Assembly (NCBI GenBank): GCA_902624075.1
Contig: CACNWC010000002.1
Coordinates: 61,088-125,087 of the forward strand
DNA: 64,000 nt
Source of the DNA: an uncultured Pelagibacteraceae bacterium
GTDB lineage: Bacteria > Pseudomonadota > Alphaproteobacteria > Pelagibacterales > Pelagibacteraceae
Reading direction: 5' to 3'
Shown piece after piece: positions 7,658 through 62,403 of this stretch (position 1 is its first letter; each line of letters begins with the position of its first letter). A model generated the notes under the pieces. It saw nothing but the letters and a program-made list of their open reading frames with translations. It did not search any database and was not told where the DNA came from. The translations under genes and the position numbers were made by a program.

Positions 7658-8269
7658 TTGTTAGAAGAAACGCTTATATTAATTCAAATTATTTTTATCG
7701 ACATTATCTTAGCTGCAGATAATGCAATAATCATTGGTTTAATTGCTGCAAATTTTGCTCCAAAAAATAGAAAACAGATTATTTTATGGGGTGTTGCAGG
7801 TGCATTATTATTTAAAATTATTTTTGCAATATTCGCTACGTATTTATTTGAATTTTACTTTATTAAAATTTTAGGAGGATTACTTTTAATTTGGATTGTT
7901 AATGATTTAAGAAAAGATCTTTTTGAAATAAAGAAAGTTAAATCACCAACAACAAAATCAAAAGAACCTTCATATATTCAAAGTGTCTATAAAGTTTTAT
8001 TTGCAGATATTACAATTAGCTTTGATAATGTTATTGGTGTTGTAGGTGCCGCAAAAGGAAATTTTAGTTTTATGATTTTTGGACTAGTTCTATCAGTAAT
8101 TTTAACTGGAGCAATGGCTACATATCTTGCCAACTACATTCAAAAACATTTGTGGATAGCTTATGTTGGTTTAGGTTTCATTCTTCTAGTTGCTATACAA
8201 CTGGTAATAGGAGGTTTGGTAGATTTGGAAATTTTATCAATTAACGAGCAATTTAAAAAATACTTCTAA
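7658..8269 (+). CDS. TerC/YjbE family integral membrane protein
   Basis: DIILAADNAIIIGL and ADITISFDNVIGV repeats typical of TerC family; TTG start. Confidence 0.85.
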   Translation: MLEETLILIQIIFIDIILAADNAIIIGLIAANFAPKNRKQIILWGVAGALLFKIIFAIFATYLFEFYFIKILGGLLLIWIVNDLRKDLFEIKKVKSPTTKSKEPSYIQSVYKVLFADITISFDNVIGVVGAAKGNFSFMIFGLVLSVILTGAMATYLANYIQKHLWIAYVGLGFILLVAIQLVIGGLVDLEILSINEQFKKYF

Positions 8270-49444: not shown

Positions 49445-50365
49445 TTATGCTATTGATTTAAGCATATTCTTTTGGATATAAGTATGAGGTAAACTTTTTT
49501 CTTTTATCTCTAAAACTGAGTAATTATCTTTATTATTAAACACTTTCCTTAATAATTGATTTGTTAAATAATGCCCTCCTTGTGAACAAGTTACATTCGC
49601 AAGCATTCTATAACCAGATGTAAATAAATCACCAATGCAATCTAAAATTTTGTGATTTACAAACTCTTTATTATTTCTTAATCCTTCCTTATTCAAAATT
49701 TCATTATTTTTCACAACAATAGCATTTTCTAAACTTCCGCCTTTTGCCAAACCATCTTTTTTAATTTGTTCTATATCTTCGTAAAGGCAGAAAGTTCGAG
49801 AGTCATATATATCTGTCAAATCATCCTCATAAACTTTAATTTTATTTCTTTGATTACCAATTAGCTCATTTTGAAATTTAATTTCAAAATCAATGTTCAA
49901 GTTTAATTTGGCTGGTTCAATAATTATTTTTTTATCGCCCTCTACAAACTCAACCCTTTTTTTTATTTTTATTATTTTAATTGGTGTTTCACTAAAATGT
50001 ATTCCGCTTTGGGTTATCTTTTTTACAAACTCTCTAGCTGAACCATCAAGAATTGGAACTTCTTCACCATCTATTTCAATTACAGCATTATCTATTCCTA
50101 ATCCAAATAAAGCTGCCATTAAATGTTCAATAGTTGATACTTTAACACCAAATTCATTAGAAATTGTTGTGTTTAAAGAAGTGTTGGTAACATTTGCAAA
50201 GTTTGGTTGAACAATGTTATTAGATTTTAAATCAATTCTTTTAAAATAAATACCTGAATTAGGCTCAGAAGGCTTAACACAAATTTTCACAAGTTTACCA
50301 CTATGTAAACCCATGCCCTCAAACTTAATTGAGTTTTTGACTGTTTTTTGATTTAAATAAGACAC
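49445..50365 (-). CDS. lpxC: UDP-3-O-acyl-N-acetylglucosamine deacetylase
   Basis: GMGLHSGKLVKICVKPSEPNSGIYFKR, STIEHLMAALFGLGIDNA, HKILDCIGDLF. Confidence 0.97.
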   Translation of the reverse strand: MSYLNQKTVKNSIKFEGMGLHSGKLVKICVKPSEPNSGIYFKRIDLKSNNIVQPNFANVTNTSLNTTISNEFGVKVSTIEHLMAALFGLGIDNAVIEIDGEEVPILDGSAREFVKKITQSGIHFSETPIKIIKIKKRVEFVEGDKKIIIEPAKLNLNIDFEIKFQNELIGNQRNKIKVYEDDLTDIYDSRTFCLYEDIEQIKKDGLAKGGSLENAIVVKNNEILNKEGLRNNKEFVNHKILDCIGDLFTSGYRMLANVTCSQGGHYLTNQLLRKVFNNKDNYSVLEIKEKSLPHTYIQKNMLKSIA

Positions 50366-50437: not shown

Positions 50438-51145
50438 TTAGCCAAAAAGTTGAAAAAATCTCTCAAAAAATCCAATTTTTCTAGTAATTTTTGATGAAAT
50501 TATAACCTCGTTATCATTAAAACCTTCAATGATCTTTTTACTCATTAAAAATAGTTCTTCGTTTTTGCTCGATTTTGATGTTTTTTTTACATATTGAGCG
50601 CTTAAAAATTTATCAATTGATATTTGATATTTTTTACAAATTTTTTCAATTTCTTCAATAAGTTCGTTGGATAATGAAATAAAAGTTACATCTAAAGAAA
50701 AAGTCTTACATTTCATTTTTTGAGGCAAAGATAAAAATTCTTTCCCATCAATTAAATATTGATTTATTATCATGTGAATTATGGTTTTATTATTAAAACT
50801 ATCTTTAAATTGATATTTTATTTCATTAAGAGCATGTTTAATATTTTCTAGAGTAATTTCATCTCCATTATTATTTTTTTTAATTGAAATATCTACTGAA
50901 AGAATATCTTTATGATCAATTATAAGATTAATATCTTTAATGAATGTATTAAATAATTTTTCTATTTTGTAAATATTTTGGTCCAAAAATATTTCTAAGT
51001 CATCTAATGTTAATTCATTTTGATTATTATTTTTTATGTACTTATTAAGATAAATATTTTTAAAATCATCATACTGATGAACCGAAATTAAAAACTTATT
51101 TGAGTCTATATATAAAAAAACTTGAAGATTATTTTCATCCATCAA
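50438..51145 (-). CDS. Truncated FtsA-like protein (degenerate 1A + 1C domain + C-terminal amphipathic helix, no ATPase core)
   Basis: Occupies the ftsA slot between ftsQ and lpxC; IIHMIINQYLIDGKEFLSLPQKMKCKTFSLDVTFISLSNELIEEIEKICKKYQISIDKFLSAQ aligns by eye with the E. coli FtsA 1C region; ends KIGFFERFFQLFG. Confidence 0.7.
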   Translation of the reverse strand: MMDENNLQVFLYIDSNKFLISVHQYDDFKNIYLNKYIKNNNQNELTLDDLEIFLDQNIYKIEKLFNTFIKDINLIIDHKDILSVDISIKKNNNGDEITLENIKHALNEIKYQFKDSFNNKTIIHMIINQYLIDGKEFLSLPQKMKCKTFSLDVTFISLSNELIEEIEKICKKYQISIDKFLSAQYVKKTSKSSKNEELFLMSKKIIEGFNDNEVIISSKITRKIGFFERFFQLFG

Positions 51146-51797
51146 CGACTACCTGACTATTTTGTCTAAGATCAATAATTTTAAGATTTTCATTTTTTTT
51201 TTCTTTAATGAAGACATCTAATAATTCAAAAGATTCAATTAATTTTTCTTTTGGTAATTTTATTAGAACTCCATTTTTTGTCTCAATGTTCCATCTTTTA
51301 GATGGTAGGAAAGTTAATTTGTCAATATTCTCAAATTTAAAATTTGATTTATCAACAATTTCTTTAAAAAAGAAAAAATCTGAAACATTAAAATCACCAA
51401 AAATAATAGGTAAATTATTTATTTGTTCATTCGTTTTTATAAACTTACCATTGGATCCGATATAATTGTCATCAGCTGTTTTTATTATCAATCTAGTTTT
51501 TTCAATTTTTACTTCTATTGATGATGGATAAATTTTATATATTGTAAATTTTTCAACAAAATTATTAGAATTTATTATTTTATTAATTTTAGATCTATCT
51601 ATAAAAAATAAATTATTGACCTTTAGAACATTTAATTTTCTAGCTATATCTAAATTGCTTTTTTCATCTAAACCAGAAACAATTATATTATTTAAATTTG
51701 GGAAACTTAAATTAGCTAAATTTTTGTTGTTTATTGTTCCAATCATTAAAAATAAAAAAATATAAATTAAAACTTTTTTATTTTTGAATTGAGGCAT
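51135..51797 (-). CDS. ftsQ: Cell division protein FtsQ (short)
   Basis: N-terminal TM, POTRA-like segment NIIVSGLDEKSNLDIARKLN, position between ddl and the ftsA slot. Confidence 0.75.
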   Translation of the reverse strand: MPQFKNKKVLIYIFLFLMIGTINNKNLANLSFPNLNNIIVSGLDEKSNLDIARKLNVLKVNNLFFIDRSKINKIINSNNFVEKFTIYKIYPSSIEVKIEKTRLIIKTADDNYIGSNGKFIKTNEQINNLPIIFGDFNVSDFFFFKEIVDKSNFKFENIDKLTFLPSKRWNIETKNGVLIKLPKEKLIESFELLDVFIKEKKNENLKIIDLRQNSQVVVDG

Positions 51798-58466: not shown

Positions 58467-59552
58467 TTATCTGAGTTTTAACGTAGCTAAACCAATCATT
58501 GCTAGAATGATCGAAATAATCCAAAATCTGATTACTACAGTTGACTCTGGCCAACCTTTTTTTTCAAAATGATGATGTATTGGAGCCATTTTAAATATTC
58601 TTTTACCAGTCAATTTGAATGAAATCACTTGTACCATAACAGAAACAGCTTCAAGGACAAATAATCCGCCTATAATTGCTAAAACTATTTCATGCTTTGT
58701 AATTATTCCCACAGCACCCAGAGAACCACCTAATGATAAAGACCCAGTGTCACCCATAAAAATTTTTGCAGGAGGTGCGTTAAACCATAAAAAACCTAAG
58801 CACGCTCCAATGATAGCTCCACAAAAAATTGAAATTTCACCCGTTCCTTCAATATAAGGAATTTGTAAATAATCTGAAAAAACTATATTTCCAGTGACAT
58901 AACTTATAAATGCAAAACAAGCAGCAACCAGAATTACTGGTACAGTTGCTAAACCATCTAAACCATCAGTTAAATTAACTGCATTAGAAGATCCGATAAT
59001 TACAAAAATTGCAAAAGGAATAAAGAACCAACCTAAATTTATAATTAAATTTTTAAAGAAAGGAAAAAATAAATTTGTTAACTCACTGTTATTTGAAAAT
59101 TTTATCAAAAATATTATTCCAATTACAGCCAAAATTATTTGTAATAATATTTTTATCTTAGAGGATATTCCTGAGGAATTTTTGAATTTTATTTTTTGAT
59201 AATCGTCATAAACACCTAGCAAACCAAATGATATAGCAATATATAAAGCAAAAATAATATAAATATTTTTAAGATCAGCCCACATTAATACAGAGATTAA
59301 TAAACCAGTTAAAATAATCAAACCACCCATAGTAGGAGTTCCAATTTTTTTTATGATATGGTCTGTAGGACCATCATCTCTTATTGGGTTAGTAATTTCT
59401 TTGTTGGCAAAATATCTTATAAAAGGATTTCCTATCAATAATACGATAATTAATGATGTAAACACCGCTAAACCAGTTCTAAATGTAATATACTTAAAAA
59501 CATTTAAGAATGAAAAAATATCAACAAAGTCTAATAGAAAATTATAAAACAT
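58467..59552 (-). CDS. mraY: Phospho-N-acetylmuramoyl-pentapeptide-transferase
   Basis: GTPTMGGLIIL, NAVNLTDGLDGLA, FMGDTGSLSLGG, APIHHHFEKKGW. Confidence 0.97.
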   Translation of the reverse strand: MFYNFLLDFVDIFSFLNVFKYITFRTGLAVFTSLIIVLLIGNPFIRYFANKEITNPIRDDGPTDHIIKKIGTPTMGGLIILTGLLISVLMWADLKNIYIIFALYIAISFGLLGVYDDYQKIKFKNSSGISSKIKILLQIILAVIGIIFLIKFSNNSELTNLFFPFFKNLIINLGWFFIPFAIFVIIGSSNAVNLTDGLDGLATVPVILVAACFAFISYVTGNIVFSDYLQIPYIEGTGEISIFCGAIIGACLGFLWFNAPPAKIFMGDTGSLSLGGSLGAVGIITKHEIVLAIIGGLFVLEAVSVMVQVISFKLTGKRIFKMAPIHHHFEKKGWPESTVVIRFWIISIILAMIGLATLKLR

Positions 59553-62403
59553 TAATATTTCTCTTTTTTAATTTACTTATATAATTAAATAAACCCGTTG
59601 AATTAGATCCTTTTACCATCAAATAATCACCATCTCTTAAATTAGTTATCAAAAGATCATCTAATTCCGAATCATTTTTTAGAATATTTCCTTTTTTGGA
59701 TTTATTAATTCTTTTAAAAGTTTGAATAATATCCTTTCCAATAACATGCACTTTATCAATTTGAGTCTTATTTATTGAGTCTGCAATAGATGCATGTAAT
59801 TTTTTTGAATATTTTCCTAATTCAAGCATATCTCCAAGTAAAATATGTTTCTTATTATTATTAATTTTTATTTTATCAAAATTTTGCAATGCTGAATTTA
59901 AAGATAAAGGATTAGAATTATAGCTTTCATTAATTATAAAAATTTTCTTTTTATTGAGTGTTAATATTGAAATATTACCTCGACCTTCTCTCGTTTTTAT
60001 ATTTAAAAATAAATTTTTACTCAATTTATTAACATCAACAAAAACTTGCATGACTGTTATGGCTGCTAACATATTATATAAAAAACTATTAAAATTCCTT
60101 TTAATATAAAATTGCTTCTCTGTGTTATTTATATTCAGGATAATCTTAAATATATTTTTTTTCCTAATAATTTTTTTGATATTTACTGTTGTATTTTTGT
60201 TGTGTAGTGAAAATGACAAAACTTTTATTTTTTTTTTGTAGGCTAATTTTTTATGAAAATTAAAAAATTTATCGTCTGCATTAAGAACTATTGACCCATT
60301 AATGTTTATATTGTTAATAATTTCACCTTTTGCAGCAGCAATACCTGAAATATTCTTAAAATTTTTAATATGCGCAAAACTTACATTCGTTATAACTCCT
60401 ACATCAGGTCTAATTATTTTTGAGAGAAAATCAATTTCTCCTTTTTTATCCATTCCAACCTCTAAAACACCAAATTTATCCTTTTGACTTATATTAAATA
60501 AAGTCAAAGGCACTCCATATTTATTATTGAAAGATTTTTTGGAGTACGTTGTTTTATAGTTCTTGTTAAGAGCCAAACCCAATATATCCTTCAATGATGT
60601 TTTGCCACAACTTCCTGTAATTGCTATGATTTTAGTTTCTAAACTTTTTCTTTTAACTTTGGAACAATCAGTTAAAAAATTTAAACTATTTTTAACTTTA
60701 ATTTGTTTAGTATAACTTGATTTTTGTTTAATTTTTTCAACTATTGCTAATGATGCTTTTCTTTTAAATACTTCATTTAAATAATTGTGAGCATCATTTT
60801 TTTCACCTCTAAGTGTAAAAAAAATATCATCTTTACAAACTTCTTTTGAATTTATTACTGCTTCTTTTGAATTCAATTTTTTGACAGATATATTTGAGTC
60901 AGAGATTTCTTTAATAATATTCAAATTTAAATTTTTTGATAAAGTTTTATTTTTATCATTAATAGCTTTTAAAATAATTTCTCGATCAGAAAAAAATCGT
61001 ACTTTGTTTTTGTAAGTTTGAAATGTTTCGTGACCTTTTCCAGCTATTAATAAAATTTCTGAACTTTTGAGATCTAAAATAGCCTTCTTAATTGCTTTTT
61101 TTCTATCTGAAATTTCATAAATATATTTTTTTTTTATTCCCTCTTTAATTTTTTTTCTAATTTGATTAGGATTTTCATTTCTTGGATTATCATCTGTTAA
61201 ATAAATTTTTTGACAATAAGTGTCCACAATTTTTCCCATCAAAGATCTTTTTTTCTTGTCTCGATCTCCACCACATCCAAAAACTATTGATATATTTTTA
61301 TTAGGAAACTGTTCTTTTAAATTTTCTAAAACAATTCTTAAAGCATCTGGAGAATGAGCATAGTCTAAAATTACTTTTGAATTGTTCTTAATTTGACCAA
61401 TTTTTTCCAATCTTCCATCAATAGGTTTTAATTTGTTTAGACTTTTAATGACATTAGAGATATTGATGCCACTTTTCTCAGCAGCAATTAATGCCATCAA
61501 AACATTTTTAAGCTGAACTTTTCCTATTAGTTTTATTTGAAATTTAAAATTAAGTTTTTTATATTTTAAGTATATTATTTGATTATCTCCATCAAAATTA
61601 TGATGAATGACTTTAATTCCTAAATTTTTTTTTTCTTCAGAAATTGTATTAAGCTTTAAATTTTTTTCTTTTGAAATTTTTTGAATTCTAATGAATTCTG
61701 GAATAGAACTATCAGTTATAATATTTCCATTACTCTTTAATAATTTTTTAAACAAATAAAGCTTAGAATTAAAATAATCTCTAAAATTTTTATGATAATC
61801 TAAGTGATCATGAGAAAGATTTGTAAAAATTCCAATATCAAATAATAATCCGTCTAATCTATGTTGTTTTAAACCATGGCTAGATGCTTCCATTATAACA
61901 TTATCTATTTTCTTTTTTTTTAGATCTTTTAATATTTCACTTAATTTTATCGGATCTATTGTTGTATTGGGTAAACTTCTTAATGAGTAGTTAGTTTTAA
62001 TTCCTAAAGTTCCTATAGAAGCAACTTTTTTTTTATTTAAATTTAATATTTGAAAATAAAAATCTGCTATAGATGATTTTCCGTTAGTTCCAGTAACAGA
62101 AACTAAATTTTTTGGCTTTAAATAATTAATTTTAAAAGAAACTTGTGCTAACAATTTTCTAATATTTTTAGTGTAAATAAATAAAATTTTATTTCTGATC
62201 CCTGAAAACTTTTTTTCGTGAACAATTATTTTTGATCCCTTTTTGATAGCATCATTGATAAAATTATGGCCATCAATTTTATTACCCTTTATGGCAAAAA
62301 AAATAAAATTTTTTTTTACTTTTGAACTGTCAAAAGCAATATTAGAAAAGAAGTAATTCTTATATTTTTTTTCTATTTTGGGAAAGTAATCTTTAAGAAA
62401 CAT
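59542..62403 (-). CDS. MurE-MurF fusion protein (meso-DAP-type MurE + MurF)
   Basis: 953 aa with two Mur-ligase P-loops (VSVTGTNGKSSIADF and IAITGSCGKTSLKDI); MurE DNPRNENP motif; no stop between halves. Confidence 0.93.
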   Translation of the reverse strand: MFLKDYFPKIEKKYKNYFFSNIAFDSSKVKKNFIFFAIKGNKIDGHNFINDAIKKGSKIIVHEKKFSGIRNKILFIYTKNIRKLLAQVSFKINYLKPKNLVSVTGTNGKSSIADFYFQILNLNKKKVASIGTLGIKTNYSLRSLPNTTIDPIKLSEILKDLKKKKIDNVIMEASSHGLKQHRLDGLLFDIGIFTNLSHDHLDYHKNFRDYFNSKLYLFKKLLKSNGNIITDSSIPEFIRIQKISKEKNLKLNTISEEKKNLGIKVIHHNFDGDNQIIYLKYKKLNFKFQIKLIGKVQLKNVLMALIAAEKSGINISNVIKSLNKLKPIDGRLEKIGQIKNNSKVILDYAHSPDALRIVLENLKEQFPNKNISIVFGCGGDRDKKKRSLMGKIVDTYCQKIYLTDDNPRNENPNQIRKKIKEGIKKKYIYEISDRKKAIKKAILDLKSSEILLIAGKGHETFQTYKNKVRFFSDREIILKAINDKNKTLSKNLNLNIIKEISDSNISVKKLNSKEAVINSKEVCKDDIFFTLRGEKNDAHNYLNEVFKRKASLAIVEKIKQKSSYTKQIKVKNSLNFLTDCSKVKRKSLETKIIAITGSCGKTSLKDILGLALNKNYKTTYSKKSFNNKYGVPLTLFNISQKDKFGVLEVGMDKKGEIDFLSKIIRPDVGVITNVSFAHIKNFKNISGIAAAKGEIINNININGSIVLNADDKFFNFHKKLAYKKKIKVLSFSLHNKNTTVNIKKIIRKKNIFKIILNINNTEKQFYIKRNFNSFLYNMLAAITVMQVFVDVNKLSKNLFLNIKTREGRGNISILTLNKKKIFIINESYNSNPLSLNSALQNFDKIKINNNKKHILLGDMLELGKYSKKLHASIADSINKTQIDKVHVIGKDIIQTFKRINKSKKGNILKNDSELDDLLITNLRDGDYLMVKGSNSTGLFNYISKLKKRNINVL

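Follow-up and report, generated by a model that had tools for sequence, protein, structure and literature searches.

In an uncultured Pelagibacteraceae bacterium, we identified a short FtsA in which domain 2 (subdomains IIA and IIB) appears to have been deleted. The stretch of DNA analyzed here, 64,000 nucleotides long and hereafter called the window, carries this protein as an ORF that encodes 235 aa if translation begins at a TTG and 234 aa if it begins at ATG 51142; we refer to the product as mini-FtsA. The best explanation of the data as a whole, to which we assign a probability of about 70%, is that mini-FtsA is the sole, domain-2-less FtsA of this bacterium and acts as a membrane adaptor. 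As judged from its sequence, it is FtsA by descent, it fails as an actin-family ATPase on the features tested (phosphate-1, phosphate-2, and IIA/IIB), and the most fitting name for it is a domain-2-less FtsA variant.

The initial annotation of this DNA had placed a 235-aa ORF, overlapping ftsQ, in the slot where ftsA is expected, before lpxC. The coordinates proved to be as claimed, and the neighbors were identified by Pfam. The gene order murG-murC-murB-ddl-ftsQ-[mini-ftsA]-lpxC is found in the window and in relatives, and the end of ftsQ overlaps the start of mini-ftsA by about 8–11 bp. The genes and the segments of mini-FtsA are as follows, with residues numbered on the protein.

49445–50365, minus strand: lpxC, the downstream anchor of the slot (Pfam LpxC, E 1.5e-95).
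50438–51145, minus strand: mini-ftsA ORF, start TTG 51145 or ATG 51142, stop 50438–50440, 234–235 aa; same-slot orthologues occur in dozens of genomes.
51135–51797, minus strand: ftsQ (Pfam POTRA_1 and FtsQ_DivIB_C above cutoff).
50951–51142, minus strand: N-terminal part of subdomain IA, residues 1–64 (AlphaFold2 strands 6–12, 16–23, and 29–36, helix 46–64).
50669–50950, minus strand: subdomain IC (SHS2), residues 65–158 (PF02491 above the gathering cutoff; AlphaFold2/Foldseek match to FtsA; H123 invariant).
50573–50668, minus strand: last part of IC, then the middle IA segment as far as the deletion point, residues 159–190 (the short-form profile reaches E. coli FtsA residue 195).
50519–50572, minus strand: junction and C-terminal helix, residues 191–208 (alignment to long forms; model helix 194–205).
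50474–50518, minus strand: linker with conserved E212-V213, residues 209–223 (pLDDT < 50 at 218–224; E212 invariant in 38 short forms).
50441–50473, minus strand: predicted membrane-targeting amphipathic helix GFFERFFQLFG, residues 224–234 (lowest column entropy; model helix 225–233).

The FtsQ encoded at 51135–51797 is short (220 aa) and has practically no cytoplasmic tail, with MPQFKNKK leading into the membrane helix; relatives are alike. Elsewhere in the window, a single ORF of 953 aa (59542–62403, minus strand) contains two Mur ligase modules (Mur_ligase_M and Mur_ligase_C each match twice) and is most likely a MurE–MurF fusion. The source genome is a draft of 34 contigs with 86.9% completeness; genomes of these SAR11-type bacteria are about 1.0–1.5 Mb.

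Profile searches connect mini-FtsA to FtsA. The Pfam profile PF02491 (SHS2_FTSA) scores 27.6 bits over residues 84–156 (cutoff 25.4), and the NCBIfam profile TIGR01174 (FtsA) matches residues 55–195 over positions 54–192 of 371 (E 2.9e-11). A profile built from 38 short forms likewise reaches E. coli FtsA 53–195 on sequence alone, with an E value of 7e-6. The equivalog cutoff of TIGR01174 is missed by mini-FtsA (43.1 bits vs. 175.85), as it is by a full-length congener (L033, 103 bits). Since the score lies far under this naming cutoff, an annotation pipeline that uses TIGR01174 alone would not give mini-FtsA the name FtsA. A Pfam search of mini-FtsA returned no match to PF14450 or to SepF (PF04472).

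Full-length congeners indicate what has been removed. These long forms carry PF14450, a phosphate-1 motif (IDFGSSK), a phosphate-2-like motif (LDIGFxKT), the motif GGxHITxDIS, and an adenosine-type motif (GEGSK). All of these motifs except phosphate-1 fall within the block missing from the short forms, so the deletion removes IIA and IIB and leaves IA and IC together with the tail. Mini-FtsA lacks phosphate-2, the adenosine motif, and everything else in domain 2. The phosphate-1 loop, within residues 1–64, is degenerate and reads YIDSNKF where long congeners carry a D-x-G-S-x-K loop; the conserved helix of this segment ends at E61-K62, both of which are invariant. Short and long forms align in frame on either side of the gap; the junction at residues 191–208 is where IIA and IIB (about 135–170 aa) are absent relative to the long congeners. 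The distance from Tyr184 to the C-terminal end is 49–52 residues in short forms vs. 188–223 in long forms. The initial annotation had recognized a middle resembling FtsA 1C, and this agrees with the PF02491 match above cutoff and the TIGR01174 match over 55–195. Its degenerate phosphate-1, missing phosphate-2, and FtsA-like C-terminal helix are likewise upheld by alignment and conservation. Two of its statements need adjustment. It was right that 1C is kept, but what is kept is all of domain 1, namely the N-terminal part of IA, IC, the middle IA segment, and the C-terminal helix before the linker. The domain-2 block is indeed gone, but it measures about 135–170 aa rather than about 200 aa.

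A comparison of an AlphaFold model with FtsA structures, which the initial annotation had named as a check, gave an IA and IC fold that is that of FtsA. The AlphaFold2 model of mini-FtsA, made with 38 short forms, has a pLDDT of 88.3 and a pTM of 0.82; confidence is low for the linker (pLDDT < 50 at 218–224) and for the tail, where the terminal helix spans 225–233. In a Foldseek search of the PDB, FtsA occupied places 1–19 (E 7.8e-12 to 6.2e-8), with the FtsN-bound Vibrio FtsA 7q6i among them; PilM came next, and then the cytoplasmic domains of EpsL/GspL. The model of a separate short-form group (group i, seven sequences, pLDDT 75) had FtsA as Foldseek hits 1–19 as well. That mini-FtsA is unrelated to FtsA is thus ruled out by the fold matches and by the profile matches (PF02491, TIGR01174, and E. 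coli FtsA 53–195). On sequence and model, the window ORF is almost certainly an orthologue of FtsA from which domain 2 has been deleted.

The slot was read in about 90 relatives, where it was located through lpxC or through the short-form profile. In the genus of the window, the slot holds a protein of either 220–237 aa or 368–399 aa, and in sister genera and the sister family it holds an FtsA of 393–413 aa. An order-wide survey covered 397 genomes. Among the 150 matches listed, 127 were 215–250 aa, 10 were at least 360 aa, and 13 were partial; short forms are over-represented here, because the matches were ordered by how similar they are to the query. The short ones include proteins from single-contig genomes. 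The uncultured Pelagibacteraceae assembly AG-439-O04 (L030) sits within the short-form group of the window. Among 289 sampled genomes of the class, the short-form profile found FtsA outside the genus only as full-length proteins of 396–452 aa. The literature searched, which left subscription journals mostly out of reach, yielded nothing on FtsA truncation in SAR11. Two proteins of the collection are shorter still, at 220 and 222 aa (L169 in G165 and L149 in G070), and lack about 12 residues of a 1C loop at nearly the same place. In another genus of the family (g8; L099, L107, and L124), FtsA is full-length with altered phosphate motifs (YLEINN.. and IQIGKDKS), and the genomes mostly have a single PF14450 match, presumably MreB; this FtsA is full-length yet perhaps no longer nucleotide-binding.

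These relatives bear on whether the short ORF is merely a normal ftsA disrupted by a sequencing, assembly, or frameshift error. The source genome is a draft (34 contigs, 86.9% complete), and one relative (G012) does have a frameshift in its short ftsA. However, the 127 short ORFs among the listed matches come from independent genomes, single-contig ones included, both gap ends align in frame, and no leftover domain-2 sequence was found in 19 short-form genomes. Given the number of intact short ORFs, the single-contig genomes among their sources, and the lack of a domain-2 remnant, an error is hardly credible, and we regard this reading as ruled out. The apparent frameshift in G012 (L126, about 7900–7945; single-contig, completeness 100) lies at a homopolymer run in the first third of the short ftsA, and could be a sequencing error, slippage, or a real pseudogene. 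Two other short ftsA matches were reported with internal stops (G388:C18:8802-9434 with seven and G184:C5:7426-8010 with three).

We also considered that a full-length FtsA or a separate domain-2 gene elsewhere might complement mini-FtsA in trans. The incompleteness of the source genome leaves some room for this. However, the sole PF14450 match in that genome is MreB, and in the cases compared, the PF14450 tally tracks ORF length, with typically one match in short-form and two in long-form genomes of the genus. A domain-2 profile was then run on seven long-form controls and on 19 short-form genomes, including five that are single-contig and 99–100% complete. It matched all seven controls (E 1e-35 to 1e-58), yet gave no credible match in the 19 short-form genomes, where a single chance fragment appeared at 0.03. 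Complementation in trans is ruled out by this profile for the five single-contig genomes and is very improbable for mini-FtsA. Mini-FtsA is thus, with little doubt, the only FtsA of its genome as far as sequence searches can tell. The core of the initial annotation, an FtsA without its ATPase and polymerization half that keeps 1C and the membrane helix, is strongly supported by the profiles, the structure prediction, the full-length congeners in the slot, and the lack of domain 2 genome-wide. It had listed observations that would speak against it; what we found instead is a match to the SHS2/1C fold, no error, and no complete ftsA elsewhere.

A gene that has lost half of its product could be a decaying remnant, drifting in cells whose division no longer uses FtsA. 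Fast evolution would fit, with only 20–45% identity between the window protein and other short forms of the one genus, and so would the degenerate phosphate-1 loop. However, dN/dS is 0.11–0.30 in seven close short-form pairs, similar to the 0.09–0.22 of long-form pairs. Length, helix, and the residues E61, K62, H123, and E212 are conserved genus-wide, and the gene is retained in streamlined genomes. In 38 short forms, the invariant positions besides the start are E61, K62, H123, E212, G224, F230, and F233, and the C-terminal membrane helix is the most conserved segment (mean entropy 0.94 bits vs. about 2.1 elsewhere). A remnant is therefore improbable, and the substitution patterns indicate that the short FtsA is kept long-term under purifying selection.

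How often the short form arose depends on the genes consulted. The long form is taken as ancestral, since all outgroups are long. A tree of flanking genes (lpxC, ddl, murB, murC, and murG; 78 genomes) requires five changes to explain the short form, and well-supported branches force four of them. A single short-form clade is rejected by the flanking genes (p-AU 2e-52) and, less strongly, by FtsZ (p 0.017). The tree of the ftsA core (235 columns) is compatible with one clade (p 0.43, or 0.49 under a mixture model). In all short groups, the retained C-terminal stretch from Tyr184 spans the same 49–52 residues. Two histories would fit: repeated loss of domain 2 at a site set by the structure, or one or two losses followed by spread of the short allele through recombination.

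Mini-FtsA is predicted to consist of a folded IA–IC module, a flexible linker, and the FtsA membrane helix. In FtsA, the cytoplasmic tail of FtsN binds the IA–IC cleft, longitudinal contacts are made by IIA–IIB, and lateral contacts by IC (PMC7613929). On this contact map, the retained module corresponds to the receptor half plus the membrane anchor, and the lost half to ATP, filament, and FtsZ-binding functions. Without its phosphate, adenosine, and longitudinal-contact elements, mini-FtsA would neither bind ATP nor form actin-like protofilaments of the known type, and with the nucleotide loops lost, its action should be independent of nucleotide. It is probably a nucleotide-independent, non-filamentous membrane adaptor, as both the sequence and the model suggest, and it may sit on the membrane as a monomer or as an IC–IC dimer. 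The IA–IC cleft could receive a tail that a divisome membrane protein extends into the cytoplasm, in the way that FtsA binds FtsN and PilM binds PilN; by this analogy, we lean slightly toward binding of such a tail. 1C is reported to be required for FtsA self-interaction and for recruitment of FtsQ and FtsN (PMC4281207). Of the partners that the initial annotation had proposed for 1C, FtsN and FtsQ, the latter is an unlikely one here, since only a few residues precede its membrane helix.

The way in which FtsZ is held at the membrane is a separate matter. FtsZ is present in these bacteria, in the order mraZ-ftsZ-mraW (loci L193, L183, and L176). Its gene does not adjoin ftsA but has mraZ and mraW as immediate neighbors, at the head of the cluster some 16 kb off (L003 = G000:C22, L193, L183, and L176); the contig of the window stops before ftsZ. 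The C-terminal peptide of FtsZ, DDLEIPAFLRRQKN, is common to short- and long-form genomes with at most one or two changes. We take the contact of this peptide to lie on IIB, as in the Thermotoga FtsA:FtsZ structure 4a2a. The initial annotation took mini-FtsA for a tether of the divisome, yet IIB, the known FtsZ-binding subdomain, is gone while the FtsZ peptide is intact. More speculatively, FtsZ would no longer dock by the canonical IIB site, and its peptide would be held by some other protein or by a surface newly acquired by mini-FtsA.

On the sequence evidence, we see even odds that FtsZ is not bound through mini-FtsA. The alternative, that mini-FtsA still tethers FtsZ, the peptide having shifted to a different site in IA or IC, and serves as a SepF-like Z-ring anchor without ATP or polymerization, is possible but falls somewhat short of that. 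The C-terminal peptide of FtsZ binds FtsA (PMC5832921), and its unchanged state would also be expected if mini-FtsA bound FtsZ by a new surface. No part of mini-FtsA is more conserved than its membrane helix, and no other FtsA is left. ZipA was not found in the short-form genomes, and no SepF exceeded its cutoff in 21 genomes. However, deletion of 2B is reported to abolish FtsZ binding in E. coli (PMC4281207), and the IA and IC columns vary away from the helix, at a mean entropy of about 2.1 bits, without any evident pocket of new conservation. The most far-reaching scenario combines several independent losses of the ATPase and polymerization half within one genus, division by a non-filamentous, nucleotide-free FtsA, and an FtsZ held at the membrane by another protein via its unchanged C-terminal peptide; we consider this combination unlikely as a whole.

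Why FtsA is an actin, and whether division needs its ATP cycle and filaments, are long-standing questions. The short FtsA suggests that many SAR11-type ocean bacteria divide without the textbook actin-like FtsA filament. Here, domain 2 has been lost naturally from an orthologous FtsA, with full-length close relatives available for comparison, and the partner-binding and membrane functions are thereby separated from those of ATP, filament, and FtsZ binding. With the FtsA docking site for FtsZ gone and the ligand peptide unchanged, these genomes point to a missing FtsZ anchor, which can now be sought.

Known systems resemble mini-FtsA to different degrees. It shares with canonical FtsA (E. coli, Thermotoga, and Vibrio; 7q6d, 4a2a, and 7q6i) the ftsQ-adjacent locus, the IA and IC fold with the middle IA segment, and the linker with a C-terminal amphipathic helix, and orthology is backed by synteny and full-length congeners. 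Unlike them, mini-FtsA has no IIA or IIB, and so no phosphate-2 or adenosine motif, longitudinal contact, or known FtsZ-peptide site, and its phosphate-1 is degenerate. PilM of type IV pili, the second-best Foldseek class, has a 1C-type insertion and a cleft that binds the short cytoplasmic tail of PilN (PMC7613929), but it retains the full actin-like core, binds ATP, and belongs to a different system. The cytoplasmic domain of EpsL/GspL from type II secretion (1yf5, 1w97, and 4pht; Foldseek E 2e-5) is a compact, membrane-attached adaptor of about 230 aa with a fold related to FtsA and PilM. However, it is part of a single-span secretion protein that binds GspE and lacks such a C-terminal amphipathic helix; the similarity is one of fold only, with 6–8% identity, and the neighbors of mini-FtsA are division genes, so its identification as GspL/EpsL was rejected. 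SepF, a small membrane-bound protein of the Z-ring that works without nucleotide and has an amphipathic helix, is an analogue of the role proposed for mini-FtsA, but its fold is unrelated, its helix is N-terminal, and it binds the FtsZ peptide. A laboratory counterpart, an E. coli FtsA lacking 2B (PMC4281207), also misses the FtsZ-binding subdomain. This construct is reported to lose the FtsZ interaction and the cells filament, whereas the larger deletion in mini-FtsA is a natural, maintained state.
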